The notes under the pieces were generated by a model. That model saw only the letters and a list, made by a program, of their open reading frames with translations. It searched no databases and was not told the origin of the DNA. DNA of 41,507 nucleotides from a virus. Of the stretch, positions 6,414 to 41,194 are shown in pieces; positions within the stretch are counted from its first letter, which is position 1; the number at the start of each line of letters is the position of its first letter. A program made the translations under genes and the position numbers. Location: the IMG/VR virus record IMGVR_UViG_3300025889_018428, positions 1 through 41,507 of that record. One strand, given 5' to 3'.

Positions 6414-6849
6414 AAGTAAAACTAATTTCCTCCTTAGATAGCCATTCCTCTGCTAGAAGAATGTAACAATTTAAAAATTTAATATACAACCAATTATCAG
6501 TCCATTCTGGAACAATATCTGTTACTACATATATAGGGCTTCTATTATACTTAAAAAATAATAGAGGTTTTTGTTTTCCCCCTTCAGATTGTTCAAGTAG
6601 TTTCTTCCACCATTTTATTAAATTATTTGTTTTCTTTTGAGTAAAAATTTTATCAGAAAGAGGGCTTTCTTCATAATTTTTTACTTCAATACAAAATCTA
6701 TTTTTAACATGAGGAACGTAAAGATCCCCTTTTAAGTAGTTTAGTGCTCCACTTAGAGGGATTCTCTCGAACTGTAAGTTTGTACGCTCTCTTAATAAAT
6801 CCCTTACTAAGTACTCACCACGAGCACCTTTTGCTCTTGAATCAACCAT
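6397..6849 (-). CDS. Hjc-like Holliday junction resolvase
   Basis: A 150-residue PD-(D/E)XK nuclease. The N-terminus SRAKGARGEYLVRDLLRE carries the conserved glutamate helix, LKGDLYVP the metal-binding aspartate and FCIEVKNYEE the E-x-K catalytic pair, in the order and spacing seen in archaeal-type Hjc resolvases. Such enzymes cut four-way junctions that arise in recombination-dependent replication, and the flanking gp46/gp47 and flap-exonuclease genes support that role. The C-terminus ends in an acidic tail and overlaps the next gene by 17 bp. A different PD-(D/E)XK nuclease activity cannot be excluded from sequence alone. Confidence 0.75.
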   Translation of the reverse strand: MVDSRAKGARGEYLVRDLLRERTNLQFERIPLSGALNYLKGDLYVPHVKNRFCIEVKNYEESPLSDKIFTQKKTNNLIKWWKKLLEQSEGGKQKPLLFFKYNRSPIYVVTDIVPEWTDNWLYIKFLNCYILLAEEWLSKEEISFTYEYDE

Positions 6850-6852
6850 AAA

Positions 6853-7065
6853 TTAAAAATTATTTAGAACATCTAATTTTTCTGTATACTCCGCAATTTT
6901 TGATATTTCTTCTTCTATAGCTTGAAGCACATCAGGATGTTCTCCTATCCCTGCGGGATTGTGTAAATAGATCTCTACGTTTGCTTCGTGATACTGGATT
7001 TTTCCTCTAAAAGTTTCGCGTAAAGCATCGAGAATTTTTTCTCTTAAAATTTCTTTTTTACTCAT
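6853..7065 (-). CDS. Small conserved phage protein (GIGEHPDVLQAIE family), unknown
   Basis: A 70-residue, mostly helical protein with the central motif LHNPAGIGEHPDVLQAIEEE. I recall proteins with the same core from marine phage genomes, often in replication or recombination regions, without an assigned function. The ATG at 7065 overlaps the stop of the gp46-like gene (ATGA), so translation is coupled to it; AGGT lies a few bases upstream. Ends three bases before the resolvase start region. An accessory role to the gp46/47 complex is only a guess. Confidence 0.6.
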   Translation of the reverse strand: MSKKEILREKILDALRETFRGKIQYHEANVEIYLHNPAGIGEHPDVLQAIEEEISKIAEYTEKLDVLNNF

Positions 7066-8858
7066 AAATCTAACCTACTTATATTTTCCTCTTTTAATAC
7101 CTCTATTTTACTTAGAAGGGGATGAGACCAGCCATGACTTACTATATAAGTATTTAGTTCTTCCTTTAAAAGAACCTCTACAAGTCTTTCTCTTCCTACT
7201 TCATCCAATACGTTTATAACTTCGTCTAAGAAAAGAATATTAATTTTAGACTTAGAAATACTACTCATTAATTTGCGAATTGCAAGCAATGTAGCTGTAT
7301 TTACTCTTGCCAGCTCTCCTGAAGAGAGTGCAAGAATATCTATTATATTCCCTGAGTCTGTGACTTCTACGTTTAACTTATCATTAGAAATTACAAATTC
7401 AAGAGTAAATCTACCGTCGGACAGTTCTCCTAAATAGTGATTTACCATTTCTTCTAACTCTTTTACAAGATTTTCAATTTTATAAGCGACTAGCCCATTG
7501 GTACTGAAAGTCTTTTTTAGAACTTCTAAATTTGAAAGAGTAACCTCAGAAGATACGAGAGACGCAGATAATTCTTCTAATTCTTCCTTATAAGATTCTG
7601 TTTGCTCTTGAATTAGTTTAATTCGAGTATTATGCTCAAATCTTTTAGAGTTTTCTTCTTCTAACTTTTTTATTTCTTCTTTTGCTTTTTTAACCCTTAA
7701 AGCTATTTCTTTTAAGTCCGCTTTTAGTTTATCCTCATTCAAAAGCTCAGAAGGAAGACTCTGATCTATAGAATTATATAAGTCTTTCCACTCTCTTTCA
7801 ATTTTATTTCTGTAATCTATTCGAGTATTAGTCTCTCTTGTAGTTTGTACAAATTCTTGTAATTCTCTTCCTCTTACTCTTAGCTCTGCTAACTCTCCCT
7901 CTGTCTGTTCAATAAGAGAGGATTTAAAAGAGGAAGGGATTTCCTGCTCACAAGTAGGACATTGATCTCCTAAATTATTTATTTTCTCTAAAAACTTTTT
8001 TAACCCCGTTACCGCCCCTGATAAAGATCCTAACTCTTTTTGTTCTTCATCATAGGATTTTTTATCTGTTTCTACTATCTTTTGAGCTTCCTCTAAAGGA
8101 ACCCTTTTTAGCATTTCTTTATAAGAATTATTTTTAGAAATTTTTTTATTTTTTGAAGAAATATTTTCAATTTCTGTCGTAATTCTGTGGAACTCTTTCT
8201 CTTCTTCTTCCGTAGAAATTTCTATTTCTAACAGAGGCACTATGGTAGTATCTGTCAGATTATTATTTTTTAACCATTTTTCTATTGTACTTACTTTGGC
8301 AGAAGTTCCAGCTACTTCTAGGCTTAATTCTTTACTTTTCTCTTTAAAAATATCGAATAGACTGACATAATTATCTAATTGAAGCAACTCTATTAAAAAC
8401 TTTTTTCGGTTAGTATCAGTAGCAGTTAAGAACTGTAAACTTGCTGTTGTACTTTGATATACAAGTTGAGAAAAAGTTTTAAAATCTAAGCCAATAATAT
8501 CTTGTATTGTTTTAAAGGTTTCGGTAGCAGTATGACTACTTATATCTTCGTCATTTTTTAAAACAGTGGCTTTTACCCCGCTCTTTCTATCAATAATTAT
8601 AATATAGTCATCGTTGTCTTTAGTTAGCTCTAAGGTTATATTATAACCTTTTCCAAGAAATCTATTTGGTATATCTGCTTTTTTTATTCCTTTCGAATTC
8701 TTATTAAATAAAGCCTCCTCTATAATAAGAGGAATAGAAGACTTACCGGTTCCGTTAGTACCTATAATCTGAGTAACAGAATCTGTAGTTAAATCTAAAA
8801 AATTATCTGCACCGTAACTAAAACAGTTGTTCCAGTATAGTGTTTTTAATATAATCAT
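7062..8858 (-). CDS. Recombination nuclease ATPase subunit (T4 gp46 / SbcC / Rad50-like)
   Basis: An SMC-type ATPase of 598 residues that with the gp47-like nuclease resects DNA ends for recombination. Walker A is GTNGTGKSS (from Gly33, Lys39), coiled coils run from about 170 to 295 and 305 to 450, and the zinc hook CPTC is at 300-303 between them. The signature ALSSGELARVNTA and Walker B INILFLDEVINVLD close the C-terminal lobe. It is near T4 gp46 in size and much shorter than cellular SbcC. In this operon an oxygenase gene separates it from the nuclease subunit, and the small gene 6853-7065 overlaps its stop by four bases. Confidence 0.93.
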   Translation of the reverse strand: MIILKTLYWNNCFSYGADNFLDLTTDSVTQIIGTNGTGKSSIPLIIEEALFNKNSKGIKKADIPNRFLGKGYNITLELTKDNDDYIIIIDRKSGVKATVLKNDEDISSHTATETFKTIQDIIGLDFKTFSQLVYQSTTASLQFLTATDTNRKKFLIELLQLDNYVSLFDIFKEKSKELSLEVAGTSAKVSTIEKWLKNNNLTDTTIVPLLEIEISTEEEEKEFHRITTEIENISSKNKKISKNNSYKEMLKRVPLEEAQKIVETDKKSYDEEQKELGSLSGAVTGLKKFLEKINNLGDQCPTCEQEIPSSFKSSLIEQTEGELAELRVRGRELQEFVQTTRETNTRIDYRNKIEREWKDLYNSIDQSLPSELLNEDKLKADLKEIALRVKKAKEEIKKLEEENSKRFEHNTRIKLIQEQTESYKEELEELSASLVSSEVTLSNLEVLKKTFSTNGLVAYKIENLVKELEEMVNHYLGELSDGRFTLEFVISNDKLNVEVTDSGNIIDILALSSGELARVNTATLLAIRKLMSSISKSKINILFLDEVINVLDEVGRERLVEVLLKEELNTYIVSHGWSHPLLSKIEVLKEENISRLDL

Positions 8859-28544: not shown

Positions 28545-28655
28545 TTACATGATAGGCAATAAAAATATAGCTGTAACTATTGCTGACCCAATTAACATTA
28601 CAAAATCAAAATTATTTCCTAAAAAGTTTGTCGTTTTCCTAATAGCTCTACTCAA
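28545..28655 (-). CDS. Possible 36-residue membrane protein (holin candidate)
   Basis: A frame starting with TTG at 28655, overlapping the hsp20 stop by 8 bp, encodes a basic N-terminus (RAIRKTTNF) and one hydrophobic segment (FVMLIGSAIVTAIFLLPIM). No good ribosome binding site is visible. Its place between hsp20 and lysozyme makes a small holin or pinholin possible, but with only one transmembrane helix and no other evidence this is tentative. Confidence 0.35.
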   Translation of the reverse strand: MSRAIRKTTNFLGNNFDFVMLIGSAIVTAIFLLPIM

Positions 28656-29061
28656 TGGTGATAGACTTAGGCTTATCTTCTTCGGGTACGTGTTCCGCAA
28701 TCCAAATTTTGAGCAAGCCATCGGTCAGAGTAGCATTCTCAACTTTAAGATTTTCGCCTACATGGAAGGTTTTAGAAAAACCTTTACCACTAATTCCTTT
28801 GTGAAGATACTTAGAAACGTCAGTGCCGTTTAAAGCCTCTCCTTTTACGATCAAACTTTGTTTTTCTACAGTGACGGACACTGTATTCTTTGACCTGCCG
28901 GGTACAGCTACTTCTACTCTATACCCTCCGTCTTCTTTAACAATATTGTACCTCGGATACTGCTGGGAAAGTTCTCCAGGCCCCCACAAAAGTCTATCTG
29001 TGTCTAGCCTATCAAATCCCAACATTACTTTGGAAAGATCATTAAATGCAATTTTAGTCAT
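28648..29061 (-). CDS. Small heat-shock protein (Hsp20/alpha-crystallin)
   Basis: A 137-residue ATP-independent chaperone with the alpha-crystallin domain: YRVEVAVPGRSKNTVSVTVEKQ, the loop KGISGKGFSKTFHV, the conserved ATLTDGLLKIWI and a C-terminal KSITIE anchor. Such genes occur in many marine phages, where they may stabilise structural proteins during assembly. AGGAGA lies six bases before the ATG. The C-terminal I-x-I motif (ITI) used for oligomerisation is present. Confidence 0.9.
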   Translation of the reverse strand: MTKIAFNDLSKVMLGFDRLDTDRLLWGPGELSQQYPRYNIVKEDGGYRVEVAVPGRSKNTVSVTVEKQSLIVKGEALNGTDVSKYLHKGISGKGFSKTFHVGENLKVENATLTDGLLKIWIAEHVPEEDKPKSITIE

Positions 29062-29170: not shown

Positions 29171-29731
29171 CTACGGTCTAACCCAACTGGGTCTTTGTTT
29201 AATTGTCATCCACGTCGGATAACGGCTCCAGGCATTAGTCTCTACTATGCCCGTTAAATATATTTCGTCAATTTGATGCTTAGCACAAAAAGTATTTACT
29301 GCCTCATAAACTAAAGGCCATTTTCTTTTATCGTAATCATCTCCTGCAAACATGCCCCCTACTTTGAGTTTAGGCCACCAGTCATAAAGAGTCTGTCCGT
29401 TTTCCTCTCCAGTATGAGCATACCCATCTACATATATAAAATCAAAACAATTATCAGGAAATAGATCTAGTGCTTCATCGAAACGCATCTTTAGTAAAGA
29501 ATATCCAGATAAAACACCAACAGCTGTTAGTGCTTTTTTGTATTGTTGTAGATTATGCCCTCTATCAGCATACATATCAACCCCAATATATCTTAAAAAC
29601 TTACCACTACGAATCGCCCTGCTAGAATACAGTCCTTCTGCAACGCCTAGCTCTATACCTATATTAGAGTTTCCAGGTAGTTTTTGTAATATATCGTGTC
29701 GGTGAAAATTCTTTAATAAAGTTACTTTCAT
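29171..29731 (-). CDS. Class I SAM methyltransferase-like protein
   Basis: A 186-residue Rossmann protein: motif I in IGIELGVAEGLYSSRAI, acidic loop in YIGVDMYADR, the core FDFIYVDGYAHTGEENGQ and GGMFAGDDYD. The DxxH/DGxH style is that of the Methyltransf_24-like family acting on small or glycan substrates. It differs from the methyltransferase at 5745-6413. The ATG follows the tmRNA gene by about ten bases and has no visible ribosome binding site, so translation may depend on processing of the tmRNA transcript. Confidence 0.7.
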   Translation of the reverse strand: MKVTLLKNFHRHDILQKLPGNSNIGIELGVAEGLYSSRAIRSGKFLRYIGVDMYADRGHNLQQYKKALTAVGVLSGYSLLKMRFDEALDLFPDNCFDFIYVDGYAHTGEENGQTLYDWWPKLKVGGMFAGDDYDKRKWPLVYEAVNTFCAKHQIDEIYLTGIVETNAWSRYPTWMTIKQRPSWVRP

Positions 29732-29740
29732 AAAATAAAT

Positions 29741-30026
29741 ATGGGCCGGAACTTGGCTAACAAGGCGTCCGGCAAACCCCGTCTAGCTTTAAGCAGCTAG
29801 AGAGTAAATGTCATCATTGGCATTTATATTTATTAAGTTTTTACGTCTACTCTGACGAATCCTAAAAAATACTTTCAATAGCCCGTCGAAACCTGTCAGC
29901 CCCCTCATAAACACACCCTGCGTAGTCTTCTACGGTAATCCGTTGGGAACCTTACTGCGCCTTACGGATGTGCTTATGGTGGAGCTGGGCGTATTGAAAC
30001 GCCGTCCGATCCATCTAGTTATATTT
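29741..30026 (-). ncRNA. ssrA: Circularly permuted (two-piece) tmRNA
   Basis: tmRNA rescues stalled ribosomes and tags the unfinished protein for proteolysis. In permuted order along the minus strand, the acceptor piece comes first: CGGACG, a T-arm GGCGT/ACGCC around TTCAAT, and CCAGCTCCACCA ending at 29977. A 73-base spacer to be removed follows (two hairpins, one CGTAG/CTACG at 29921-29934). The coding piece then begins at 29903 with GGGGCTGACAGGTTTCGACG. GGGGCTG pairs with CAGCTCC and includes the G3-U70 pair for alanyl-tRNA synthetase. The tag frame, 29821 to 29789, reads ANDDIYSLAA then TAA, and this stop lies in the loop of a 7-bp stem TCTAGCT/AGCTAGA. A UATTTTT/AAAAATA pairing joins the pieces. 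A GCCGGA/TCCGGC hairpin (29745-29773) closes the 3' side. Ends are approximate. Confidence 0.93.
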
Positions 30027-30443
30027 TTATAACGGGATTTGTAGTTCTTCAAAAACTTTCTTTTTTATAAGTCTAGGAGAGTGTACTTCTGCGTGACAAT
30101 TTTGACAAAGTATGGCACATTTTTCAAGTTCATCCTTAAGTGTCTTTACAGTAGCGTGCCTTCTCTTTGAAATTTCAAAAGACTTTGTAGAAGGCTCTAT
30201 GTGATGAAATGCTATTGCTCCCAAGTTCTCATCATATCCACAAAGTTCACATTCCCAATGTCTATTTAATTCTGTTATCGCCTGAGTAAGTCTAGTATAA
30301 TATTGGTGGAACTCCTGTTTACTAGAGCAGGTCTTACAGAAAGGTTTATGTTTTTGTTTTCCATTAGGCTGAGTCCCGTTCTTCTGAAACTCAGATATTG
30401 GTTGCTCTATATTACAAACATTACAAGTTTTGCTTTCACTCAT
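30027..30443 (-). CDS. HNH endonuclease with N-terminal zinc finger
   Basis: A 138-residue nuclease with two parts: an N-terminal Cys4 module (CNVCNIEQPI and CKTCSSKQ) and a C-terminal HNH domain (CELCGYDENLGAIAFHHIEPS, then CAILCQNCHAEVH). The catalytic HH pair, the central Glu/Lys region and the CxxC zinc knuckles are intact. The start at 30443 is supported by the ATGA overlap with the Bfd-like gene; the frame is open to 30509. The stop lies at the edge of the tmRNA acceptor piece. It may be a homing-type endonuclease linked to the tmRNA locus or a nuclease acting on host DNA. Confidence 0.82.
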   Translation of the reverse strand: MSESKTCNVCNIEQPISEFQKNGTQPNGKQKHKPFCKTCSSKQEFHQYYTRLTQAITELNRHWECELCGYDENLGAIAFHHIEPSTKSFEISKRRHATVKTLKDELEKCAILCQNCHAEVHSPRLIKKKVFEELQIPL

Positions 30444-30598
30444 GTTTCTTTTCTGTCTTCTGTTAGATAAGTTATCTTCTCTACTTTTACCGACCCTTCT
30501 TCTGAGCATTTACCGCACTTAGATCCCAAAAGATGGTAATAGTAGTCATTCTCTTCTAGCATTTTCTCTGTAATTGCATTACAAATACAAACGTACAC
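30440..30598 (-). CDS. Bfd-like [2Fe-2S] ferredoxin
   Basis: A 52-residue protein beginning MYVCICNAITEKMLEE and containing SKCGKCSEEGS. The Cys-x-Cys near the N-terminus and Cys-x2-Cys about 25 residues later are the four cluster ligands of bacterioferritin-associated ferredoxins, which reduce the bacterioferritin core to release iron. The GTG start overlaps the previous TAG by one base and follows GAGGA; the stop overlaps the HNH gene (ATGA). It could mobilise host iron for the phage Fe enzymes (NrdB and the oxygenases). The fold assignment is by motif only. Confidence 0.75.
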   Translation of the reverse strand: MYVCICNAITEKMLEENDYYYHLLGSKCGKCSEEGSVKVEKITYLTEDRKET

Positions 30599-30795: not shown

Positions 30796-30824
30796 ATTAT
30801 ACTTCATCCGCACCACTTTGTCAA
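30796..30824 (-). promoter_or_regulatory. Sigma70-type promoter for the Bfd/HNH/tmRNA operon
   Basis: Minus-strand TTGACA (30819-30824) and TATAAT (30796-30801), spacer 17 bp. No other promoter is visible before the tmRNA, so tmRNA is probably cut from this transcript. Confidence 0.86.
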
Positions 30825-30846: not shown

Positions 30847-30880
30847 AAAAAAACCTCGGTGAAAATATATTTCACCGAGG
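30847..30880 (-). terminator. Strong intrinsic terminator
   Basis: CCTCGGTGAAA (30854-30864) and TTTCACCGAGG (30870-30880) form a perfect 11-bp stem with loop ATATA. On the minus strand it is followed by seven T (30847-30853). It ends the transcript that carries the small membrane gene at 30998-31150 and lies just upstream of the next promoter. Confidence 0.92.
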
Positions 30881-30882
30881 CT

Positions 30883-30966
30883 TTAGTAGAGCTTTTGTCC
30901 TAGGTACAAGCTCCGAGAACCCAAGCCTAGATCGTTTTTGAGAAAACGGGCAAGAAACTCGCGCAT
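30883..30966 (-). CDS. Possible 27-residue peptide before the terminator
   Basis: An ATG at 30966 opens a 27-codon frame ending at TAA (30883-30885), directly before the terminator. The peptide starts MREFLARFLKNDLGLGSRS and looks like an amphipathic basic helix. No clear ribosome binding site is seen, so this is a low-confidence gene. Confidence 0.3.
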   Translation of the reverse strand: MREFLARFLKNDLGLGSRSLYLGQKLY

Positions 30967-31527: not shown

Positions 31528-31612
31528 CTGTATCAAGTACAAAACTGTATCAAGTACAAAACTGTATCAAGTACAAAACTGTATCAAGTACAAAACTGTA
31601 TCAAGTACAGAA
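31528..31612. repeat. Five tandem 17-bp repeats
   Basis: The unit CTGTATCAAGTACAAAA occurs five times head to tail; the fifth copy has one A-to-G change, and a four-base partial copy follows. Each unit contains the short palindrome TGTA-TCAAG-TACA. The array lies just downstream of the minus-strand promoter at 31645 and near the plus-strand promoter at 31714, so it could be an operator array, a replication iteron set or a repeat RNA. Confidence 0.95.
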
Positions 31613-31644
31613 CTGTCCCTGGCTTCTCTCAATTTCTGAATACT

Positions 31645-31748: not shown

Positions 31749-31925
31749 ATGAAAAATTATAGAAAAAAGCCATGGAGCTATAAAGAACGCATGCTTTTAA
31801 GGGACCACTACTATTTTGTAGGAGGAGAAGAGATGGAAAAAATTCTTCCAGGTAGAACTCATAATTCTATAATTAAACAAGTGGCATATTTAAAAGCGAG
31901 AGGATGGTGGTTTAAAAAACCGTGA
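31749..31925 (+). CDS. Small Myb/SANT-like DNA-binding protein
   Basis: A 58-residue protein with a Myb/HTH layout: KKPWSYKERMLLRDHYYFVG, then EEMEKILPGRTHNSIIKQVAYLKARGWW. The PGRT turn before the recognition helix is typical of Myb-like repeats. If transcription starts seven bases after the -10, the ATG is at the 5' end of the mRNA (leaderless). A strong internal site (GGAGGAGAAGAG before ATG at 31833) would give only the recognition half. It is placed to act as a regulator of the divergent promoters beside it. Confidence 0.65.
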   Translation: MKNYRKKPWSYKERMLLRDHYYFVGGEEMEKILPGRTHNSIIKQVAYLKARGWWFKKP

Positions 31926-32596
31926 AAGAATACGACCATAGACTAAGTAAAACCGTAAAAGCTATATTTCCAAGCATATCAGGGTGGCTGACAGGATCTT
32001 TATCTGCTCAATTTTACAACTTCTTAGTTACAGAAATAGTTGATAAACAAGGACCAAACGGTAAAAAACATGGAGAATATTTAGCAGGAGTCTTAAATGA
32101 GGAACTAGCTCTAGATAATCTTTTAGTTACATCCCAGATAGAAAACTTCTGTTTATTATGTGCAGAACAGTATGCGGAAACCTGGGGATGGCGTATCGTT
32201 GAAGAATTATGGAAAAGAATCGCCACTGACCGCGAATACAAAAGTTTTGAGTTAAGTTTATCCAGCAGTTGGGTTAACTGGATGAAAAAGTATGAATACA
32301 ACCCTCTACATAATCATAGTGGGTTGTTTTCTTTTGTAATTTGGCTTAAAGTTCCGTACACTATGGAAGACGAGTATACTTATTTCCCTTATAAAGATAA
32401 AGAGAAACTAAAAAACGGGGCTTTTTCTATAGTTAACTCTTGTAATGTAATTAATGAAGATTTAATATTTCCCGAAGAGGGTAAGTTTGCATTTTTTCCT
32501 GCAGAGTTAATACATCAAGTTTATCCATTTTTTAGTTCGGATGACTATAGAGTCAGTATTTCAGGAAATGTAAAAGTAGACTTTAAGGAGGAATAA
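31922..32596 (+). CDS. Putative 2OG-Fe(II) oxygenase-like protein
   Basis: A 224-residue protein with the segment NPLHNHSGLFSFVIWLKVP, later KFAFFPAELIHQVYPFF and YRVSISGNV. This matches phage oxygenases of the TIGR02466-like type with His (HNH), distal His (IHQVYPF) and Arg (YRVS) positions of the double-stranded beta-helix; the usual aspartate of H-x-D is replaced here, so activity is uncertain. It starts with GTG overlapping the previous stop (GTGA). Substrate unknown. Confidence 0.7.
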   Translation: MKEYDHRLSKTVKAIFPSISGWLTGSLSAQFYNFLVTEIVDKQGPNGKKHGEYLAGVLNEELALDNLLVTSQIENFCLLCAEQYAETWGWRIVEELWKRIATDREYKSFELSLSSSWVNWMKKYEYNPLHNHSGLFSFVIWLKVPYTMEDEYTYFPYKDKEKLKNGAFSIVNSCNVINEDLIFPEEGKFAFFPAELIHQVYPFFSSDDYRVSISGNVKVDFKEE

Positions 32597-32766
32597 TGGC
32601 AAAAATTAAGGAAGTGGTAATGTTTGTAGAGGGGTTATTCTACTCTGATTTTAGCAGGGAAGAAATAGCTAAGATGGGAAGTCGAGAGTTTAATATATCA
32701 GAAAATTATATTAAAAAAGTGTATGATGACTTCGTGTGGGAAAATAAATATAAAGTATGGACATAA
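32596..32766 (+). CDS. 56-residue protein upstream of rpsU, unknown
   Basis: ATG at 32596 overlaps the previous TAA (TAATG) and follows AAGGAGGAAT, a very strong ribosome binding site. The sequence is charged and helical with MGSREFNISENYIKKVYDDF. It overlaps the bS21 gene by 10 bp. No family recognised. Confidence 0.6.
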   Translation: MAKIKEVVMFVEGLFYSDFSREEIAKMGSREFNISENYIKKVYDDFVWENKYKVWT

Positions 32767-32942
32767 AAGTAAAAAACGGAAATGTAGAGAAAGCTCTTAG
32801 AATTTTAAAAAGAAGATCTTTGGAAAAACTTTTTGAAGTACGTGAGAGACAATACTACTTAAAGCCTTCAGAGGCAAGACAGAAGAGAAAAAAAGCAGCA
32901 AAATTAAGAGAGCTTAGGAGGGTTCGTGCTGAGAAACAATAA
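32757..32942 (+). CDS. rpsU: Ribosomal protein bS21
   Basis: A 61-residue homologue of small-subunit protein S21. It has the N-terminal strand DIKVKNGNVEKALRILKRR, the conserved EVRERQYYLKPSEARQKRKK and a basic C-terminal helix (AAKLRELRRVRAEK), matching cellular bS21 from end to end. S21 is the last protein to join the 30S subunit near the anti-Shine-Dalgarno region; phages of SAR11 and others are known to carry it. Here it may bias host ribosomes toward phage mRNA. It overlaps the 32596 gene and ends inside the dehydratase start. Confidence 0.92.
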   Translation: MDIKVKNGNVEKALRILKRRSLEKLFEVRERQYYLKPSEARQKRKKAAKLRELRRVRAEKQ

Positions 32943-33957
32943 ACGTATTTTAATTACTGGTGGAGCAGGATTCATAGCACACCATGTAGTAGAGAAAATA
33001 CTAAGAGAAACTGATTGGGATATCGTAACATTAGATAGATTAGACTTCAGTGGAAATCTAAATAGACTTTCCGAGGTAGTTAATCAATTTAATCAAGAAG
33101 ATAGAAAAAGAGTAAAAATAGTACATCACGATTTAAAAGCTGCTCTTAATGACCAAATTTCTTCCGCTATTGGAGAGATAGACTTTATTGCTCACATGGC
33201 GGCAGGATCTCATGTAGACAGGTCTATTGATTATCCTATGGAATTTGTACTGGATAATGTGGTAGGAACTGTAAATCTTCTCGACTATGCTAGAACAGTG
33301 CCAAATCTTGAGCTATTTGTGTACTTTTCTACAGATGAAGTGTTTGGTCCCGCCCCTGGCAATGTTAAATATAAGGAAACAGATAGATATAACTCCACAA
33401 ATCCCTACTCTGCTAGTAAAGCAGGAGGAGAGGAGTTCGTAGTTGCATATCAAAATACTTATGGGCTGCCTGCAATTATTACACATACTATGAATGTCTT
33501 TGGAGAACGTCAACATCCGGAGAAATATATTCCAATGTGTATAAAGCGTATCAGGGATGAAGAGACTGTTACTGTTCACTCTAATCCTGAAAAAACTAAA
33601 GCAGGCTCTAGACATTATATACATGCAGAGGATGTAGCAGATGCTTTACTTTTCTTATTGAGAACTGATCTATCCATAGCCCCTAGACTTTATAATGAGC
33701 CAAAGTGTCAAAAGTTTAATATTGTAGGGTCTGAGGAGTTGGATAATTTAGAGGTAGCTCAAATTATAGCAGAATTTCAAAATAAAGAATGCAAATATAG
33801 AATGGTTGATTTTCATTCTCAACGTCCAGGCCATGATCTTCGATATGCTCTCGATGGGAGTAAAATGGCAGAGATGGGCTGGAAGCCTAGACCGATTCGA
33901 GATAGATTGAATCAAGTAATTAAATGGAGTTTGGAGAACTCAAGATGGCTAATGTAG
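32926..33957 (+). CDS. NAD-dependent sugar-nucleotide epimerase/dehydratase (RmlB-like)
   Basis: A 343-residue extended short-chain dehydrogenase. The NAD site is ITGGAGFIAHHVV, followed by the HMAAGSHVDRSI loop, the catalytic STDEVFG and Tyr/Lys pair in YSASKAGGEE, and the RHYIHAEDVADAL segment. This is the layout of dTDP-glucose 4,6-dehydratase and related UDP/GDP-sugar enzymes. The GTG start follows AGGAGG by four bases. It probably makes an activated sugar for the glycosyltransferases encoded at 35487-39265. Confidence 0.88.
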   Translation: MLRNNKRILITGGAGFIAHHVVEKILRETDWDIVTLDRLDFSGNLNRLSEVVNQFNQEDRKRVKIVHHDLKAALNDQISSAIGEIDFIAHMAAGSHVDRSIDYPMEFVLDNVVGTVNLLDYARTVPNLELFVYFSTDEVFGPAPGNVKYKETDRYNSTNPYSASKAGGEEFVVAYQNTYGLPAIITHTMNVFGERQHPEKYIPMCIKRIRDEETVTVHSNPEKTKAGSRHYIHAEDVADALLFLLRTDLSIAPRLYNEPKCQKFNIVGSEELDNLEVAQIIAEFQNKECKYRMVDFHSQRPGHDLRYALDGSKMAEMGWKPRPIRDRLNQVIKWSLENSRWLM

Positions 33958-34349
33958 TATGGGAAGGTACTAACTTTGAGTTAGTAGGTGATTTTATGGA
34001 GGCTTTTGGTCAAGAGGTTCATTTAGAACCTCACTGGCCCGATTTCTCTACTCGAGAACTTAGAGTAGACTTAATTGAGGAAGAGCTAGAGGAATTAAAA
34101 GTAGCTATTGCTAATGAAGATCCTGTGGAGGTAGCAGATGCGCTCACTGATTTACTATATGTTGTGTACGGAGCAGGCCACGCCTTTGGCCTTGATCTTG
34201 ATACTTGTTTCAATGAAGTTCATGCAAGTAATATGAGTAAACTAGGCGAAGACGGAAAGCCTGTCTATAGAGAAGATGGCAAAGTACTAAAAGGGCCTAA
34301 CTTTTTTAAACCAAATCTGAGAAGAGCCTTATGGATGGAAACACTCTAA
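33945..34349 (+). CDS. MazG/HisE-like nucleotide pyrophosphohydrolase
   Basis: A 134-residue all-alpha pyrophosphohydrolase with the metal-binding helices VDLIEEELEELK and VEVADALTDLLYVVYG. The tail KLGEDGKPVYREDGKVLKGP is typical of phosphoribosyl-ATP pyrophosphohydrolase-like phage proteins. ATG at 33945 has GGAG eight bases upstream; the frame is open from 33924. This is one of three enzymes in the window with a pyrophosphohydrolase-like fold, which would trim the nucleotide pool. The exact substrate is unknown. Confidence 0.8.
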   Translation: MANVVWEGTNFELVGDFMEAFGQEVHLEPHWPDFSTRELRVDLIEEELEELKVAIANEDPVEVADALTDLLYVVYGAGHAFGLDLDTCFNEVHASNMSKLGEDGKPVYREDGKVLKGPNFFKPNLRRALWMETL

Positions 34350-35497
34350 AAGCGTATGTAGTTGGCTATGGTTCTATAGATGCTTTAGGAAATAACCCTT
34401 ATGAAAGTTTTCAGAATTCTTTAAATAATACTGACTACTCTTCTATAATTGAACCACTTAAAGAATACCCTATTAATACGGGGTATCAAGTTGAAGACTC
34501 TAGATTATTATACCCTAAGGGATTTCGACCCAAAGGTATGTCAAGAGCACAGAAATTTGTAATGCATGCGACAAATCTTGCCTTACTACACGCAAATATT
34601 CGCCACTCTTCTAATGTGGCTGTAATAATATCTTCTACTTTATCTGAAGGCGAGATGTCTTCAAAAAATATTCCAAAATTTTTATCAAACTCTAAAGTCT
34701 CTCCGCGAGAGAATGTTAATACTATTACTGATATGTGTACATATCATGTAGCTGAGCACTGGAAATTTCAGGGAATGTCTACTTCTGTAGCCGCCGCTTG
34801 CGCTACTGGATTAGTTAGTATTGATTATGCTATGCGGATATTGCACAGATATGACTATGTAATAGTCGGAGGTGCTGACGCTGGCTGCTATGAAACAGCG
34901 ATTAAGGGATTCCATCAAATTGGTGCAATTTCAAACAACAATAGTCCATTTGATAATAACAGAACTGGTTTTGTTATGGGAGAAGGTGCTGGAGTACTAA
35001 TTCTTCAAAATGCATATAATGTAGAAAAGTATGGCAGCAAAGTACACGCAATTTTACATGAACCTGGGCACGCATCCGAAGGCTTAAGTATTACTAGCCC
35101 TGCCGAAGACGGTAGAGGGGCAATACAAGCAATGCGACAAGCTTTAAGATATGCAGAAATTGTCCCAAATACTGTTTGTGCTCATGGTACTTCAACACCT
35201 ATAGGAGATGTCATAGAGTATACAGCAATTCAAAAAGTACTACCTAATACACCTATTTGGGCTCCTAAGAGTAAAATAGGGCATACAGTTGGAGCGGCAG
35301 GAATTTTAGAAACAATACATTGTATTGAAGCAGGAAAACAAAATATAGTACCTCATATACATAACCTAAATAAGTGTGATTTTGATACTAGCAATAGTTT
35401 ATGCCGAGAAAACACTCCCTGCGAAAAAGTTTTTATGAACAATTCTTTTGGCTTTGGAGGTAAAAATATGGCTCAGGTCTTAGAGGTTATATCCTAA
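34331..35497 (+). CDS. Beta-ketoacyl-ACP synthase (FabF-like)
   Basis: A 388-residue thiolase-fold condensing enzyme. The active site is complete: Cys157 in VAAACATGLVS, His285 in CAHGTSTPIGD, Lys313 and His318 in PKSKIGHTVGAAG, and the closing motif NSFGFGGKNMAQVL. These are the residues of KAS I/II enzymes (FabB/FabF) that elongate acyl-ACP by malonyl-ACP condensation. The N-terminal region is divergent, so a specialised acyl or polyketide product is possible. ATG at 34331 overlaps the pyrophosphohydrolase gene. The gene ends the plus-strand operon and overlaps the opposing glycosyltransferase by 11 bp. A phage copy of this enzyme is unusual. Confidence 0.92.
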   Translation: MDGNTLKAYVVGYGSIDALGNNPYESFQNSLNNTDYSSIIEPLKEYPINTGYQVEDSRLLYPKGFRPKGMSRAQKFVMHATNLALLHANIRHSSNVAVIISSTLSEGEMSSKNIPKFLSNSKVSPRENVNTITDMCTYHVAEHWKFQGMSTSVAAACATGLVSIDYAMRILHRYDYVIVGGADAGCYETAIKGFHQIGAISNNNSPFDNNRTGFVMGEGAGVLILQNAYNVEKYGSKVHAILHEPGHASEGLSITSPAEDGRGAIQAMRQALRYAEIVPNTVCAHGTSTPIGDVIEYTAIQKVLPNTPIWAPKSKIGHTVGAAGILETIHCIEAGKQNIVPHIHNLNKCDFDTSNSLCRENTPCEKVFMNNSFGFGGKNMAQVLEVIS

Positions 35498-36833
35498 TAG
35501 GACCTGGGAACCTCTCTCCATTGGGATCTTTTAAAGCAATCATACAAGCTCTAACAGCAAGATTTCCATTCTCATCAGGAACATTCCAGACCCCATAACT
35601 TTGAAATCTTATATCTTCTGTATAAGATTCTTTAGCCTTAGTTATATCGGTGTAGTGATAAAAAGAGTCATAATTCCAAAAACTTCTATGTATAGGATTA
35701 GAAAAAGCAGCCTTGCCTTCTGTGGAAGGTACTTGTAAAACAAGCCAGCCCCCATGAACTAAAACTCTCCAGCACTCTCTCATTATAAAAACAGGATCAT
35801 CTAGTAGATGTAGGATATTCCAAGCTCTTATAATCCCTACTGAATTATCCGCCACCTGAATTCCATTATTTAAATCGTCTCTGACATCTCCCCAGTGTAG
35901 ATCATAATTTCTTAAGCCGAAAGTCGAAATTTCTCCTCCTCCTAGTTCTATCCTATCTCCTAAGACAGCGCCCTCTATAACGGCTATTTCTGAACAGCGA
36001 TCTCTCCAGAGCTCTTTAGTTTTTACTTGTATGCTCTCGTTTCTCTGAATAGAAGTATTTGCTGTCCCCGTAAGTCTATAAAAATATAAAGGTTCTGGTA
36101 TATGAACAAATTTAGTATGATGTATATAAAGACGCTGTATCCAATCAATATCATCTCCTGTACTTAATTCAGGGTCATAACTGTTTAAAGTAGTATTTAA
36201 AGACCTTTTCCAGCTTCTTACATGATCGGGAGCATACCAGACATACGAGAAAGCCTTAGCAGTAGGTTGCCAAGTATTATTCACCGTACCAACTTCACCA
36301 GAATGTGGCCAAACATAGCTATAGTCTGTCCAACCATGCTCTTTACTAAAGCCATGCCAAGGCCCATAATCTTCTTCAACAAAATACATACAGTTAGAGT
36401 AAACAAATCCTGCGTCAGGATCGTTCTCATATACTTCGTTTAATTTTTCTAAACAATCGTACCTAAGTTTATCATCATGATCTACCTCTACTATTATATC
36501 GCCTGTAGCTAGTGAAAAAGCGGCATTTTTTATATCTCCAATAGAATTCTCGGGTTGATGCTCCCGTATTTGGGTATGCCATTTAACTCTATCGTCTGAA
36601 ATTGATAACTGGGTTTTTAGTACTTCTGGGCTAACCTCGCCATTACAATATACTACCCACTCCCAGTTGGTATAGGTTTGATTAATAATACTATCCCATA
36701 ATTGCGCTAAATTATGTATATTTAAATAAGTATGTTCCGGTGTTACAATACTAAATTTTAAGCTAGTAGGAGCTTCCTCGACGGCTGCGTTAAGCTCTTC
36801 TGACAAAAACAAGGGTTTTAATTTTAGTTCCAT
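35487..36833 (-). CDS. Glycosyltransferase fused to a methyltransferase-like domain
   Basis: A 448-residue two-domain protein. Residues 25-260 form a family 2 glycosyltransferase: SIVTPEHTYLNI nucleotide site, DIIVEVDHDD metal-binding DxD, and TGDDIDWIQRL at the acceptor side. Residues 285-430 resemble a SAM methyltransferase: GGEISTFG, ADNSVGIIRAWNILHLLDD and MRECWRVLVHGGWLVLQVPS. The domain order suggests transfer of a sugar and its methylation in one protein. It lies five bases after the 808-residue gene and should work with the RmlB-like dehydratase. Confidence 0.82.
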   Translation of the reverse strand: MELKLKPLFLSEELNAAVEEAPTSLKFSIVTPEHTYLNIHNLAQLWDSIINQTYTNWEWVVYCNGEVSPEVLKTQLSISDDRVKWHTQIREHQPENSIGDIKNAAFSLATGDIIVEVDHDDKLRYDCLEKLNEVYENDPDAGFVYSNCMYFVEEDYGPWHGFSKEHGWTDYSYVWPHSGEVGTVNNTWQPTAKAFSYVWYAPDHVRSWKRSLNTTLNSYDPELSTGDDIDWIQRLYIHHTKFVHIPEPLYFYRLTGTANTSIQRNESIQVKTKELWRDRCSEIAVIEGAVLGDRIELGGGEISTFGLRNYDLHWGDVRDDLNNGIQVADNSVGIIRAWNILHLLDDPVFIMRECWRVLVHGGWLVLQVPSTEGKAAFSNPIHRSFWNYDSFYHYTDITKAKESYTEDIRFQSYGVWNVPDENGNLAVRACMIALKDPNGERFPGPIRI

Positions 36834-36838
36834 AAAAG

Positions 36839-39265
36839 TTACTCAAAGAAAAATAATTGTACTAATCTTCCTGTTTCTTTGGAATTACCAAAGTAAGGCC
36901 CTGCAGAATGTATATGATGCCCATTAAAAATTACACATCTGTTATATACATTATGACATTCTGCTATTGTTGGAAATAGGCTTTCATTGAAAAAGCCTTG
37001 AGAAAAAGCTTTACTTATTTCTGGGGAAGCATTTGTTGTGGCAGTGGTAAAAACCGAAGAATGCAACCTTGTTCCAGAAGAAGTAGGAGCGTTCGGAGTT
37101 AAAAATACTACTGCGCCCCATTTTTGATTATCGCAGTGAAAGACTTGAGGATCTTTCTCTGTTGTTATTTGAAAACAGCCGGAGGGGGATTGTTCTTCTA
37201 AGTCCCTGTCTAACCGTACATTTAGTATTTTTTCAAACTTTGTTTTTAATCCTTTGGGTATAAATGTTTGTGAGGACCTCAGCCCTTTGTAGTTTTCTAA
37301 ATTTTCTACATACTCTAATCCCAAGGCCTTTTGTCTAACCTTGTCCGGATACTTATAAAAATTATCAATAATTATTAAATTAGTACTGGCATTATTTAAA
37401 GGCAAAGCTTCTTCAGTATCTAGCAAGGTTTGTTGATATTTCCTAGGGACTTGGCCTCCTCCTTCACACATATAGAATTGCTTGTCCAAGAAAACTTCAT
37501 ACCTATCATCCGGAAAGTTTTCAAAATACTGTATATTTTCATTGAAACAAGTTACAGCAGCTCTTCTATCTCCTAGCGATATATACATATCTATTAACGC
37601 TACTACAGCTTCTGTTCTGTCCGGAACGAAAGATTTACCTAAAAGATAGTACTTTTCTGCTTCGTCATATTCTTCTAGCCATGTGTACATATTACCTATA
37701 AATATGGCTGCCCACATATTTAATTCTATCCAATTCCAGCCCTGTTCTCTACCTACTTCAAGATAGTTTTTCCAAAGCTGTATTGCTCTTCTAGTATATT
37801 CTATGCGAAGAAATTCGGGGATTCCAGTCGCTGTAACAGCGTTATCGTAGTAAGACTTTGCTATATACCAAAAATGATAATGATTAGATAAAAAAGAGTC
37901 TTCCTCTAACATCTTCTTTTCAAGATTTAGAGCATCAATCGCATATTTTTTAGTATTGCTATAGCTTTCTCCGTCAAAAAAAGGCTCATGTCTAAAACTG
38001 TAGGGTAGCTTAACTGTGTCATAATTCGCTTCATAGTCAGGCTCTTCCGGAGCGAGAGAAGCTAGATATGTAGTTTCATGGGCTACATCGTCATGAAATC
38101 TCCAGTTGAGGTGTGAGTTCCAAAGCCAAGTTCTCCAATATACCATAGTTCCATTAAGACAAGGAATATCCCATGCTGGAACACTCAAGTCTCTTAAAAT
38201 TTCCCAGTCAAAATCGTCCTCTACTACTAAAGTTTCGTCGCAGTCCATTTTAGTGATCCAGTCACATAAATGGTTAGAGCTTTTAAATTTTTGTAGTACA
38301 TGATCTCTATTCCAGCCATAACCTCTCCATTCGTCTATTTTATAAACAAATCCTTTTAAGTTATTTTCTTTTAGAAAAGTTTCTGCAATAACATCAGTGC
38401 CGTCGGTACTGCCATTATCCTGGAGTACATAATAAGATATGTGACCTAAAGTAGAATCAAGCATTCGTTTAATTACTGAAGCCTCATTTCTAAACATGGC
38501 TATTAGGCCTATTTTCGGCCTGCTTGTCCACGTGTTCCATAAAGAATTATGATAAAGATCAACAGCCTGAGGTCTTCCTAGACATTTATAACTCAAATTT
38601 TGAGATTTTTGAGGATAAAAACTATTGAAAAGAAACTGTTCTCCTATCAATCGTTTGTAAAATCCTTTTCCTTCTTCCTCTTCAGGAAGATCTTCTTTCT
38701 GATTTGTCCAAATTCTCATATCCCAATTATCAAAAAAAGTTATATTAAGTCCTGCTAAATAGTCGTTTTTTGCCCAGAAAAAATTTCCTGCATAATGAGG
38801 AAAATAGCAAAACTCAGAATTAGTAACATGCTCATCTGTAGAAAAGCAGGTAAATCTAGTAAAGATCGGACCACAAGTACTGTAATTCTTTAAATAGTCC
38901 AAACAAGTATCTATTTCAAGACATTTATCCCACAAGAAATTACTCCAGTCTTTAGTAGAAGAGTTCGTTACTCCTTTTGAATGACAGTAGAACGTGACGC
39001 CCCCAATATCTTTTTGAGCATTAAATACTGTTGCAGCTAGCGTTTCATTTTCAGTATAAGGATCTTGGTTTCCGTAAATATGTCCTATCTTTTCGGGAGG
39101 AATAAAATGAGAAAACTCCGGTAGAGGATCATACGAAGCTAAGTTTATATGTATATTTAATGTATCAACTCTATCTATAATCTCGGACAATCTTTGCATA
39201 TCGGACAAGAAAATATCCTTCCATTCCACACCTATTTGCCCTAGATGGTAGAATACGGTTATCAT
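36839..39265 (-). CDS. Three-part protein: glycosyltransferase, TPR, 2OG oxygenase-like
   Basis: An 808-residue fusion. About 1-245 is an N-terminal domain of unknown type (HLGQIGVEWKDIFLSD). About 250-380 is a family 2 glycosyltransferase with IGLIAMFRNEASVIKRML, LQDNGSTDGTD and the metal-binding KMDCDE. About 470-610 has helical TPR-like repeats (WKNYLEVGREQG, AEKYYLLGKSFVPDRTEAV). The end from about 640 is an oxygenase-like domain with VFHCDNQKWGAVVFLTP and GHHIHSAGPYFG, then GRLVQLFFF. It may glycosylate and hydroxylate the same target. The ATG overlaps the upstream stop (ATGA). Confidence 0.8.
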   Translation of the reverse strand: MITVFYHLGQIGVEWKDIFLSDMQRLSEIIDRVDTLNIHINLASYDPLPEFSHFIPPEKIGHIYGNQDPYTENETLAATVFNAQKDIGGVTFYCHSKGVTNSSTKDWSNFLWDKCLEIDTCLDYLKNYSTCGPIFTRFTCFSTDEHVTNSEFCYFPHYAGNFFWAKNDYLAGLNITFFDNWDMRIWTNQKEDLPEEEEGKGFYKRLIGEQFLFNSFYPQKSQNLSYKCLGRPQAVDLYHNSLWNTWTSRPKIGLIAMFRNEASVIKRMLDSTLGHISYYVLQDNGSTDGTDVIAETFLKENNLKGFVYKIDEWRGYGWNRDHVLQKFKSSNHLCDWITKMDCDETLVVEDDFDWEILRDLSVPAWDIPCLNGTMVYWRTWLWNSHLNWRFHDDVAHETTYLASLAPEEPDYEANYDTVKLPYSFRHEPFFDGESYSNTKKYAIDALNLEKKMLEEDSFLSNHYHFWYIAKSYYDNAVTATGIPEFLRIEYTRRAIQLWKNYLEVGREQGWNWIELNMWAAIFIGNMYTWLEEYDEAEKYYLLGKSFVPDRTEAVVALIDMYISLGDRRAAVTCFNENIQYFENFPDDRYEVFLDKQFYMCEGGGQVPRKYQQTLLDTEEALPLNNASTNLIIIDNFYKYPDKVRQKALGLEYVENLENYKGLRSSQTFIPKGLKTKFEKILNVRLDRDLEEQSPSGCFQITTEKDPQVFHCDNQKWGAVVFLTPNAPTSSGTRLHSSVFTTATTNASPEISKAFSQGFFNESLFPTIAECHNVYNRCVIFNGHHIHSAGPYFGNSKETGRLVQLFFFE

Positions 39266-39966
39266 GAGGATCTCTCTTGTATAAATCTATCTGTCTCCGG
39301 ATCACCTGTAGGAGCAAACTTGGCACGTTTTCTACTTGGATCTGCCGAACTGCTCGGAGGCGCTAGATAATACAAAGCAATACTCTTTCTTAATTCTTTC
39401 TCTGGGCACACGATCGGATCATTGAATCCATGCCAAGAGTTGCTAGAAGTATCAAACAATACTGCTCTGTTGAACAAACAATCAATAGAGCGAGCCTTTC
39501 TTGTAGGTTCCTTACTATCTCCCTCCCAGAAGTCTAAGGCTCCGCCCCATTCAGGCTTCCATCCTTCTGAAAGATAAACAATCAGATTGTATTTTCTTTC
39601 TAAGCCATTATCTGGATGAAGGCTATAGTCAAGATGAGTACGAAGCATTCCTCCCTTTGCATGATAGTGGAGCCCCGCTCCATGGAGAGTTGTATCGGGA
39701 ACTAAATCTGGCTCTCCCGTAGTTCTCTGCAACCAGTTTACAAATTGGTCTCCCATCAGATTATTAAAGACTTCCTGAAATACTGGAGGAAACTTTGAAA
39801 GATTTCTATCTGCAAACTTCTCTTCCACACTATTAGAATAATGATGCCACATTTCGCCAGGAACAGGAAACTCTGTCGAAAGAGCTTTTGCTCTTCGAGG
39901 GGAGAAAAAATCATCAAAGATCCAATGTTTAAAAGGATATTCAAAATACTGTCGTCTTAAAGACAT
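39262..39966 (-). CDS. 2OG-Fe(II) oxygenase (P4H-like)
   Basis: A 234-residue oxygenase with an intact iron site: H-x-D in RTHLDYSLHP, the strand pair YNLIVYLSEGWKPEWGG, the distal His in NSWHGFNDP, and Arg in LRKSIALYYLA for 2-oxoglutarate. This is the family of prolyl-4-hydroxylase-like and sugar or peptide hydroxylases. It overlaps the 36839 gene by 4 bp and the 39957 gene by 10 bp. With the fused oxygenase next door it suggests a hydroxylation step in this modification cluster. Confidence 0.87.
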   Translation of the reverse strand: MSLRRQYFEYPFKHWIFDDFFSPRRAKALSTEFPVPGEMWHHYSNSVEEKFADRNLSKFPPVFQEVFNNLMGDQFVNWLQRTTGEPDLVPDTTLHGAGLHYHAKGGMLRTHLDYSLHPDNGLERKYNLIVYLSEGWKPEWGGALDFWEGDSKEPTRKARSIDCLFNRAVLFDTSSNSWHGFNDPIVCPEKELRKSIALYYLAPPSSSADPSRKRAKFAPTGDPETDRFIQERSS

Positions 39967-40364
39967 TTTATAAACTCGCCCCTCTCTAAATAGGTTATCT
40001 CAAAACTGCCTTCAAAGACGGGACACGTTCTTCCGCCTGAGATATAGCTTCCGTCGCTCATTTCTATTTTATCTTTTAGAGAGGTACTATATCTATAATT
40101 TTCATTTTCATCTTTTACCATTATAAAAGCAAAGTCTTCTATATGGTCCATTGCATGAACCTCTAAACTTAGTTCTCCGTCCTTTTCTAGCAGAGCTACT
40201 CCGTGGTATGTATCGCCATAATAGATATCCCATACTATCTCTTCTCTTCCAATCGCAGAAGAACATACATAGCGTACATTTTCTTTTGTCCACTGAGTTA
40301 CATAGTTTCTTGCTTGCTCTTCTGGAAGAACTGGTGTATGAAATATATTAGTAAAAGGTTTCAT
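39957..40364 (-). CDS. Conserved hypothetical protein
   Basis: A 135-residue protein with a helical N-terminal stretch (PEEQARNYVTQW) and several beta segments (GVALLEKDGELSLEVHAMDH, FEGSFEITYLERGEF). I do not recognise the family. Its overlap with both neighbours places it in the oxygenase/sulfotransferase operon. Confidence 0.5.
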   Translation of the reverse strand: MKPFTNIFHTPVLPEEQARNYVTQWTKENVRYVCSSAIGREEIVWDIYYGDTYHGVALLEKDGELSLEVHAMDHIEDFAFIMVKDENENYRYSTSLKDKIEMSDGSYISGGRTCPVFEGSFEITYLERGEFIKCL

Positions 40365-40917
40365 AATCTTTTTTATACTTTTCTCTTATGTACGCTACTT
40401 CACCTTTAGATAAGGTTACCTGTCTTGCTGGAGATTTCTGCTCATGAGGAAGAACTACTGATCTTTCAAATAACTGTGACAGCTTTTCTTCGAGCTTTTT
40501 TAACTCTTCAAAACGAAATACATCTGTTACTTTACATACTCCATTTGTGTAAAGATAATCATACTGGGACATAGTTCTATAACTTTTCTCTGCAAATAAT
40601 TTTTCTGGAGTTATTGCTCGAAATTTACATTCGCTTTTAAATCTTTCTACTGGGTCTCTTACTATTGAAAAAGAGTAATTTACCTGATTTAGGTATTCTT
40701 CCGCTTCTCGAACATTCCAGTGATGAATAGGAAACTTTTTTGCATTTCTTCCCATGTGGTATTCTTCGTGAAGATCATTATATATCTGCACATGACCTTG
40801 CCCTAGTTGTATAGGTATGCCAAGGTCCCTGATAAAGAAGAACTCTACTGAAGTTCCTCCTGTCTTAGGAATGTGGATAAAATAACTGTTGTACTTCTTT
40901 ATATACAAGGAGTTCAT
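40348..40917 (-). CDS. Sulfotransferase family protein
   Basis: About 189 residues. The N-terminal FIHIPKTGGTSVE matches the 5'-phosphosulfate-binding loop of PAPS sulfotransferases (carbohydrate type) and FSIVRDPVERFKSE the 3'-phosphate-binding motif. Such enzymes transfer sulfate to glycans or proteins. The ATG at 40917 sits directly after GGAGG, which is too close, so the TTG at 40908 is an equal candidate; the frame is open to 40950 inside the upstream gene. It likely modifies a sugar built by the neighbouring enzymes. Confidence 0.83.
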   Translation of the reverse strand: MNSLYIKKYNSYFIHIPKTGGTSVEFFFIRDLGIPIQLGQGHVQIYNDLHEEYHMGRNAKKFPIHHWNVREAEEYLNQVNYSFSIVRDPVERFKSECKFRAITPEKLFAEKSYRTMSQYDYLYTNGVCKVTDVFRFEELKKLEEKLSQLFERSVVLPHEQKSPARQVTLSKGEVAYIREKYKKDYETFY

Positions 40918-41194
40918 CCTCCAACTTAAATAAAAGGCAGCACATAGCATGAGCTAGATGAGAGAGTCCTGTCTCTTCATCATTCTTTTCGCCTGCCATA
41001 TGAGCAAGAAGATGTCTCAGCGCCGCAGAAGTATAGCGTTCTTGAAGGTTCTCGAGTTTTCTCCAGTTGTGAGCATCATACTTTTTTGCTCCATAAGTAA
41101 GCACCTTTCCAACCTCTAAAGTAGCAAGAGGAGGTAGAAGATACATCTCAGGCTTTTCGTCGTCAAACTTGAGTCCATCCAATTTCTCTGCCAT
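40865..41194 (-). CDS. MazZ-like dATP/dGTP pyrophosphohydrolase (DUF5664-type)
   Basis: A 109-residue protein with KPEMYLLPPLATLEVGKVLTYGAKKYDAHNWRK and AALRHLLAHMAGEKNDEETGLSHLAHAMCCLLF, the layout of the DUF5664/dATP-dGTP diphosphohydrolase family that includes MazZ of 2-aminoadenine phages. It would convert dATP or dGTP to monophosphates. No PurZ is present in the window, so a Z genome cannot be claimed. GGAG with 6-base spacing precedes the ATG. It is the first gene of the leftward operon from the promoter at 41220. Confidence 0.75.
   Translation of the reverse strand: MAEKLDGLKFDDEKPEMYLLPPLATLEVGKVLTYGAKKYDAHNWRKLENLQERYTSAALRHLLAHMAGEKNDEETGLSHLAHAMCCLLFKLEDELLVYKEVQQLFYPHS

Follow-up and report, generated by a model that had tools for sequence, protein, structure and literature searches.

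The window, by which we mean the whole 41.5-kb virus record analysed here, belongs to a T5-like marine phage and contains, at 29698-30068 on the minus strand, a tmRNA gene that is complete and circularly permuted (two-piece). tmRNA is the RNA that frees stuck ribosomes and marks their unfinished proteins for destruction. The tag encoded by this gene, ANDDIYSLAA, is a new spelling, yet it lies one residue from known bacterial tags and is not exotic. Judged from its sequence, the gene probably specifies a working phage-encoded two-piece tmRNA with a conservative tag, which would deliver tagged proteins into the ordinary ClpXP pathway.

Two-piece tmRNAs have been described in marine phages by Buchholz et al. 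(2022), who counted 53 two-piece tmRNAs in phage genomes, 50 being of marine or aquatic origin; the roles proposed for them were to keep the host machinery running or to recycle host proteins (PMC9004378). Phage sequences number 79 in the 2025 tmRNA database (PMC11915505). The two-piece tmRNAs of Melnitz and the pelagimyophages (PMC9004378) are, like the present one, phage-encoded and permuted. However, these phages are T4-like myophages with an alphaproteobacterial-type ssrA, accompanied in Melnitz by a glutamine riboswitch, whereas the window derives from a T5-like phage, its tmRNA scores as beta type, and an Rfam search of the window gave no riboswitch. With its new tag spelling and its variant T loop, the window gene adds to the known phage two-piece tmRNAs.

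The signal of a tmRNA gene in the window is far above chance. ARAGORN called a single tmRNA, of the permuted type, with the tag ANDDIYSLAA*, the codons of which run from 29821 to 29789 on the minus strand (GCC AAT GAT GAC ATT TAC TCT CTA GCT GCT TAA). The earlier note had read from the letters a phage tmRNA with an LAA tag end, and the tag ANDDIYSLAA plus stop at 29789-29821; the ARAGORN call and the codon translation bear out both, with the coordinates exact and the strand minus. The gene matched the Rfam model tmRNA_permuted (RF04321) over its full length (model positions 1-213) with 115.6 bits and an E value of 5e-22 (cut-off 47), and beta_tmRNA (RF01850), again over the full length, with 101.8 bits (cut-off 84). 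The alpha_tmRNA model (RF01849) gave only 51.8 bits, below the beta model. The folding stability of the tmRNA strand corresponded to a z score of -5.0, and 0 of 100 shuffles were equally stable.

Table 1. Positions of the tmRNA gene, its parts and the neighbouring features in the window.
Feature	Position	Strand	Basis
Permuted two-piece tmRNA gene	29698..30068	-	ARAGORN; RF01850 match 29717-30084, RF04321 match 29789-30039
Tag frame: ANDDIYSLAA, stop codon TAA; resume codon GCC (29821-29819)	29789..29821	-	ARAGORN, translation
T arm GGCGU-UUCAAU-ACGCC, 5-bp stem, 6-nt loop	29988..30003	-	Rfam, sequence
Acceptor stem 3' strand CAGCUCC + encoded A-CCA, pairing with 29897-29903	29977..29987	-	sequence
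Acceptor stem 5' strand GGGGCUG	29897..29903	-	sequence, Rfam
Intervening segment, 73 nt, ends AAGCACA/UGUGUUU able to pair	29904..29976	-	sequence
Hairpin CUAGC-UGCUUAAA-GCUAG, tag stop codon in loop	29783..29800	-	folding, sequence
Downstream structured element GCCGGA..CGCCUUGUUAGCC..UCCGGC with beta-type CUUGUUA motif	29745..29773	-	Rfam, sequence
HNH endonuclease ORF, 160 aa; 3' end overlaps 5' part of tmRNA gene	30027..30509	-	
Methyltransferase-like ORF, 186 aa; ATG inside 3' end of tmRNA gene	29171..29731	-	
Promoter-like site TTGACA-17-TATAAT, sigma-70-like, 12/12	30796..30824	-	consensus match only
Terminator-like 15-bp hairpin, shortly upstream of promoter-like site	30850..30884	-	consensus match only

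The permuted order can be read directly in the gene, where ACCA (29977-29980) is followed by the 73-nt segment and then by GGGGCUG. The acceptor stem GGGGCUG/CAGCUCC contains G3-U70, the alanine identity pair (alanyl-tRNA synthetase), and the resume codon GCC stands directly after UAAAU. By analogy with known two-piece tmRNAs, the 73-nt intervening segment is expected to be lost in maturation. The gene shares with beta-type permuted tmRNAs (RF01850; general model RF04321) the permuted order, the acceptor and mRNA-like pieces, the CUUGUUA element and an 11-residue tag of the form AANDxx[YF]xLAA. It is unlike a typical beta-type tmRNA in being viral and AT-rich, in its 6-nt T loop, in its long branch and in its tag. 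The usual T loop has 7 nt, a length that is not strictly defining, and the RF04321 match is still full length. Such an unusual T arm would suit a decoy, sequestering SmpB or blocking trans-translation by the host, for which the tmRNA of mycobacteriophage DS6A, consisting of the tRNA-like domain only, provides a precedent (PMC4131195, PMC11915505). However, the resume codon, the tag frame, the stop hairpin and the downstream element are all intact, and a decoy would have no need of a conserved tag, which makes this explanation highly improbable.

The assignment to a T5-like phage follows from a T5-type DNA polymerase, closest (44-45%) to those of T5-like Vibrio and Aeromonas phages, together with genes for a D5-like regulator and a split NAD-dependent ligase. 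The promoter-like site listed in Table 1 is likely to be the start of a unit comprising the HNH gene and the tmRNA. A search of 12 phage records, the window among them, gave no SmpB. Host SmpB would therefore have to serve, unless the protein is encoded in the missing part of the genome, the window being a 41.5-kb fragment. A small heat-shock protein (HSP20) gene lies near the tmRNA at 28648-29061, and the two may perhaps belong to one protein quality-control set. The region 31922-40950 holds a cluster of metabolic and surface-modification genes, including those for 2OG-Fe(II) oxygenases, a GDP-mannose dehydratase-like epimerase, a beta-ketoacyl synthase, glycosyltransferases and a sulfotransferase.

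A degenerate pattern of the whole tag matched three viral contigs, L082, L083 and L084. L082 and L083 are the same phage as the window (99.1 and 99.8% identical, respectively) and have an identical tmRNA; the comparison thus offers no substitutions inside the tmRNA gene from which selection could be read. L084 was not accepted as a further phage bearing this tag, since its ACT (Thr) codon fits the loose Ser pattern and its tag is ANDDIYTLAA. At 31540-31616 the window has a 17-bp tandem repeat (TATCAAGTACAAAACTG), of which L083 has one unit fewer and L082 two fewer. L082 contains a second tmRNA (ANDEVYDLAIAA) at 579-877 besides the window-type gene at 6532-6902; it matches the window (99%) from about 4091, and the sequence before that point belongs to another relative and contains repeated homologous genes, the contig being either a real mosaic or a chimeric assembly.

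The exact tag was absent from 84,980 bacterial and archaeal species genomes scanned with the degenerate pattern. When the pattern was loosened at positions 6 and 8, the same genomes returned 114 stretches, of which 93 were true tmRNAs, indicating that the exact-tag scan of this collection works. All 93 were one-piece (ARAGORN, loci treated as linear); one gene that had appeared permuted was an artefact of circular locus handling and disappeared in the linear treatment. These gammaproteobacterial tmRNAs carry ANDDVYALAA (89), ANDDVYSLAA (3; Halothiobacillaceae, Chromatiales and an unclassified gammaproteobacterium) or ANDDIYALAA (1; Marithrix). Their tags have the same length as the phage tag and are one residue (ANDDVYSLAA, ANDDIYALAA) or two residues (ANDDVYALAA) apart from it, whereas the phage gene is permuted and theirs are one-piece. 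Among all that was searched, exact ANDDIYSLAA is thus restricted to one phage species, represented by the window, L082 and L083. The absence of the tag from the species genomes suggests that the host's tag is probably unlike it. This supports the view of the earlier note that the tag probably differs from that of the host, and an identical tag in a bacterial ssrA, which the note had named as the finding that would speak against it, occurred in 0 of the 84,980 genomes. The impression that the middle part, DDIYS, is foreign is not supported, as the bacterial ANDDVYSLAA and ANDDIYALAA are each one residue off.

Relatives of the gene were found among viruses. Permuted tmRNAs whose tags start with ANDD[IV]Y occur in three other T5-like contigs, the tags being ANDDIYALAA and ANDDVYSLAA (ARAGORN) and ANDDIYTTAIAA (L086, Rfam alignment). 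The 6-nt T loop is common to the window, L489, L485, L092, L200 and L441, the stems of which differ yet remain paired, and the closing pair of the loop covaries, being T-A in the window, L485 and L489 and C-G in L092 and L200. Degeneration as the cause of the short loop is disfavoured, since relatives share the loop with paired stems. A tree of 61 genes united the alphaproteobacterial genes sampled in one clade (100/99); in the best tree the window gene was sister to L489, its long branch lying with those of other viral genes (97/87, or 93/86 with the tag columns removed). We also considered whether ANDD[IV]Y tags arose convergently on scaffolds of the alpha and beta types, and dropped the idea, as the tag-free tree joins L085 with the ANDDVY group (98/97). 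Two permuted tmRNA genes (65-513 and 7114-7471) occur in L187 (IMGVR_UViG_3300047481_002797, 28 kb), with different tags, ANDSVYALAA and ANDEVYTLAA; both genes are above the Rfam cut-off, and an HNH-like ORF lies between them.

Phage uptake of ssrA fragments is known and has been discussed (PMC9004378), and the window gene could in principle be a host ssrA gene captured recently and left unmodified. AU tests gave p values of 0.12 and 0.29 when the gene was moved to the alphaproteobacterial set and 0.09 and 0.07 when it was moved to the betaproteobacterial set, so that neither placement was rejected. However, the lack of any species genome with the identical tag, the grouping with viral genes in the best tree, and the 6-nt T loop, which was present in 8 of 139 viral entries, a figure that includes three copies of the window gene, versus 0 of 79 bacterial permuted genes measured, render such a capture very unlikely.

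Including the charging alanine, the tag reads AANDDIYSLAA and is equal in length to AANDENYALAA of E. coli, from which it differs at positions 5 (E>D), 6 (N>I) and 8 (A>S); N3, D4, Y7 and LAA (9-11) are kept. The main side chains in the SspB-bound part of the tag are N3, D4 and Y7, as known from crystal-structure and mutational work. In the E. coli tag, SspB binds AANDENY and ClpX binds ALAA (PMC8512704, PMC13159725). The phage tag, which keeps N3, D4, an aromatic residue at 7 and LAA, appears to fit an SspB/ClpXP-compatible ssrA tag. To sample viral tags, tmRNAs were picked by a motif outside the tag, which yielded 70 distinct permuted genes, 30 of them with 10-aa tags. These 30 tags had N3 and D/E4 without exception (30/30 each), Y/F7 in 29/30, L9 in 28/30, A10 in 29/30 and A11 in 30/30, and varied chiefly at positions 5 and 6 and less at 8 (Ala in 26/30). 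DDIYS accordingly represents tolerated positions around a conserved tyrosine. With N3, D4, Y7 and LAA kept and the drift confined to positions 5, 6 and 8, the altered recognition by an SspB-like adaptor proposed in the earlier note is not supported.

By comparison with E. coli, only A8>S could shift the choice of protease, as Ala-8 is a reported E. coli ClpA determinant (PMC12493166). A specialised tag, by which phage-tagged proteins would reach adaptor and proteases at a rate unlike that of host-tagged ones, would thus mean in its live form weaker ClpAP recognition with SspB and ClpX recognition kept. The absence of the exact tag from the species genomes accords with this, as does the frequency of non-Ala residues at position 8 in the ANDD-hydrophobic-Y class, 22 of 42 distinct viral genes versus 3 of 93 bacterial genes, although these counts are not independent, many phages sharing ancestry. 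On the other hand, the SspB and ClpX determinants are intact, Ser-8 is also found in three bacteria, and Ala-8 persists in 38 of 41 viral tags of the ANDE type. We therefore consider specialisation of the tag unlikely.

Blastn of the window gene itself against cultured phages gave no match, nor did a 40-nt tag query; the tmRNAs of cultured phages were reached by blastn with related viral tmRNAs and then confirmed by Rfam. Permuted tmRNAs were present in Pseudomonas aeruginosa phages SM1 and UF_RH6 (tag ANDTSFDVRLAA), Xanthomonas phages XacN1 (tag ANANTFDYALAA), Rb1 (tag ANDDNFRPALRLAA) and X1, Stenotrophomonas phages Mendera, QDWS359 and DLP6, Acinetobacter phages BUCT628 and 3098, and also phages of Alcaligenes, Bordetella and alphaproteobacterial hosts. 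The loci in cultured phages with named hosts are L564, L565, L567, L570, L572, L573, L574-L578, L580-L583 and L585. These genes were mostly unannotated in the stretches read, and some relatives' records do annotate them. Those of SM1, XacN1, Rb1, BUCT628, DLP6 and others are permuted like the window gene, with an aromatic residue at 7, and differ from it in tag and phage family. A GOLLD RNA match of 151.4 bits (cut-off 150) lies beside the tmRNA of Ruegeria phage vB_RpoS-V10 (L568:843-1276), and a permuted tmRNA of 62 bits occurs in a Maribacter (Bacteroidota) phage (L579:740-1072), its tag call GKVMNVSFAPTVRQFA being doubtful.

Gammaproteobacteria such as Pseudomonas have a one-piece tmRNA. 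The SM1 tag ANDTSFDVRLAA differs from the published ANDDNYALAA of P. aeruginosa, and the Rb1 tag ANDDNFRPALRLAA from the published ANDDNYGSDFAIAA of X. campestris, indicating that a tag differing from the host's is ordinary for phage tmRNAs and no sign of a special function. An alphaproteobacterial host, at which the earlier note had hinted, finds no support: the scaffold scores higher as beta than as alpha type, 0 of 74 sampled alphaproteobacterial tags fit AN[DE]xx[YF]xLAA, and phages of Gammaproteobacteria commonly carry permuted tmRNAs. Such a host was likewise rejected as an inference from permutation alone, as phages of gamma- and betaproteobacteria also carry permuted tmRNAs. An aromatic residue 7 was found in 10 of 11 distinct phages of gamma- or betaproteobacterial hosts versus 1 of 5 of alphaproteobacterial hosts (Fisher p 0.013, the phages not being independent), which gives a weak hint only as to the host.

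Taken together, the full-length RF04321 and RF01850 matches, the fold stability, the intact acceptor stem with G3-U70 and ACCA, the covarying closing pair of the T loop, the ANDD[IV]Y tags of T5-like relatives and the conserved residues of viral tags argue for a working tmRNA; a T arm one base short and a gene on a long branch count against it. We infer its expression, processing, tagging, degradation of tagged proteins and benefit as follows. Processing of the transcript would yield separate acceptor and tag pieces; host alanyl-tRNA synthetase would add alanine via G3-U70, and the RNA would be loaded with host SmpB. Ribosomes stalled on broken mRNA during infection would then be freed, with A-ANDDIYSLAA added to their products. 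The tag departs only conservatively from the 11-residue gamma/betaproteobacterial design, with N3, D4 and Y7 for an SspB-type adaptor and LAA for ClpX, and since these residues are kept, tagged proteins should go to ordinary ClpXP. The likely role would be extra trans-translation capacity in infected cells via host ClpXP. Destruction of host DNA by T5-type phages, which would include the host ssrA template, may be why the phage carries a tmRNA.

We tentatively raise a further possibility, which we regard as rather doubtful, that phages maintain a two-piece lineage of their own, largely separate from the bacterial one and used in bacteria with one-piece tmRNAs. Its tags, unlike those of the host, would keep the adaptor contacts and partly leave the ClpA position 8, amounting to a phage-private stream of trans-translation.

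The tmRNAs of cultured phages temper the published picture in which two-piece tmRNAs belong chiefly to marine and aquatic phages (PMC9004378), and they show that gene permutation is no guide to the host. With the many unannotated tmRNAs in cultured phages of Pseudomonas, Xanthomonas, Stenotrophomonas and Acinetobacter, the benefit to a phage of having its own RNA for ribosome rescue could be studied in the laboratory. Phage tmRNAs also provide a natural test of tag residues, in which the adaptor and ClpX contacts stay and the remainder drifts, across unrelated phages.
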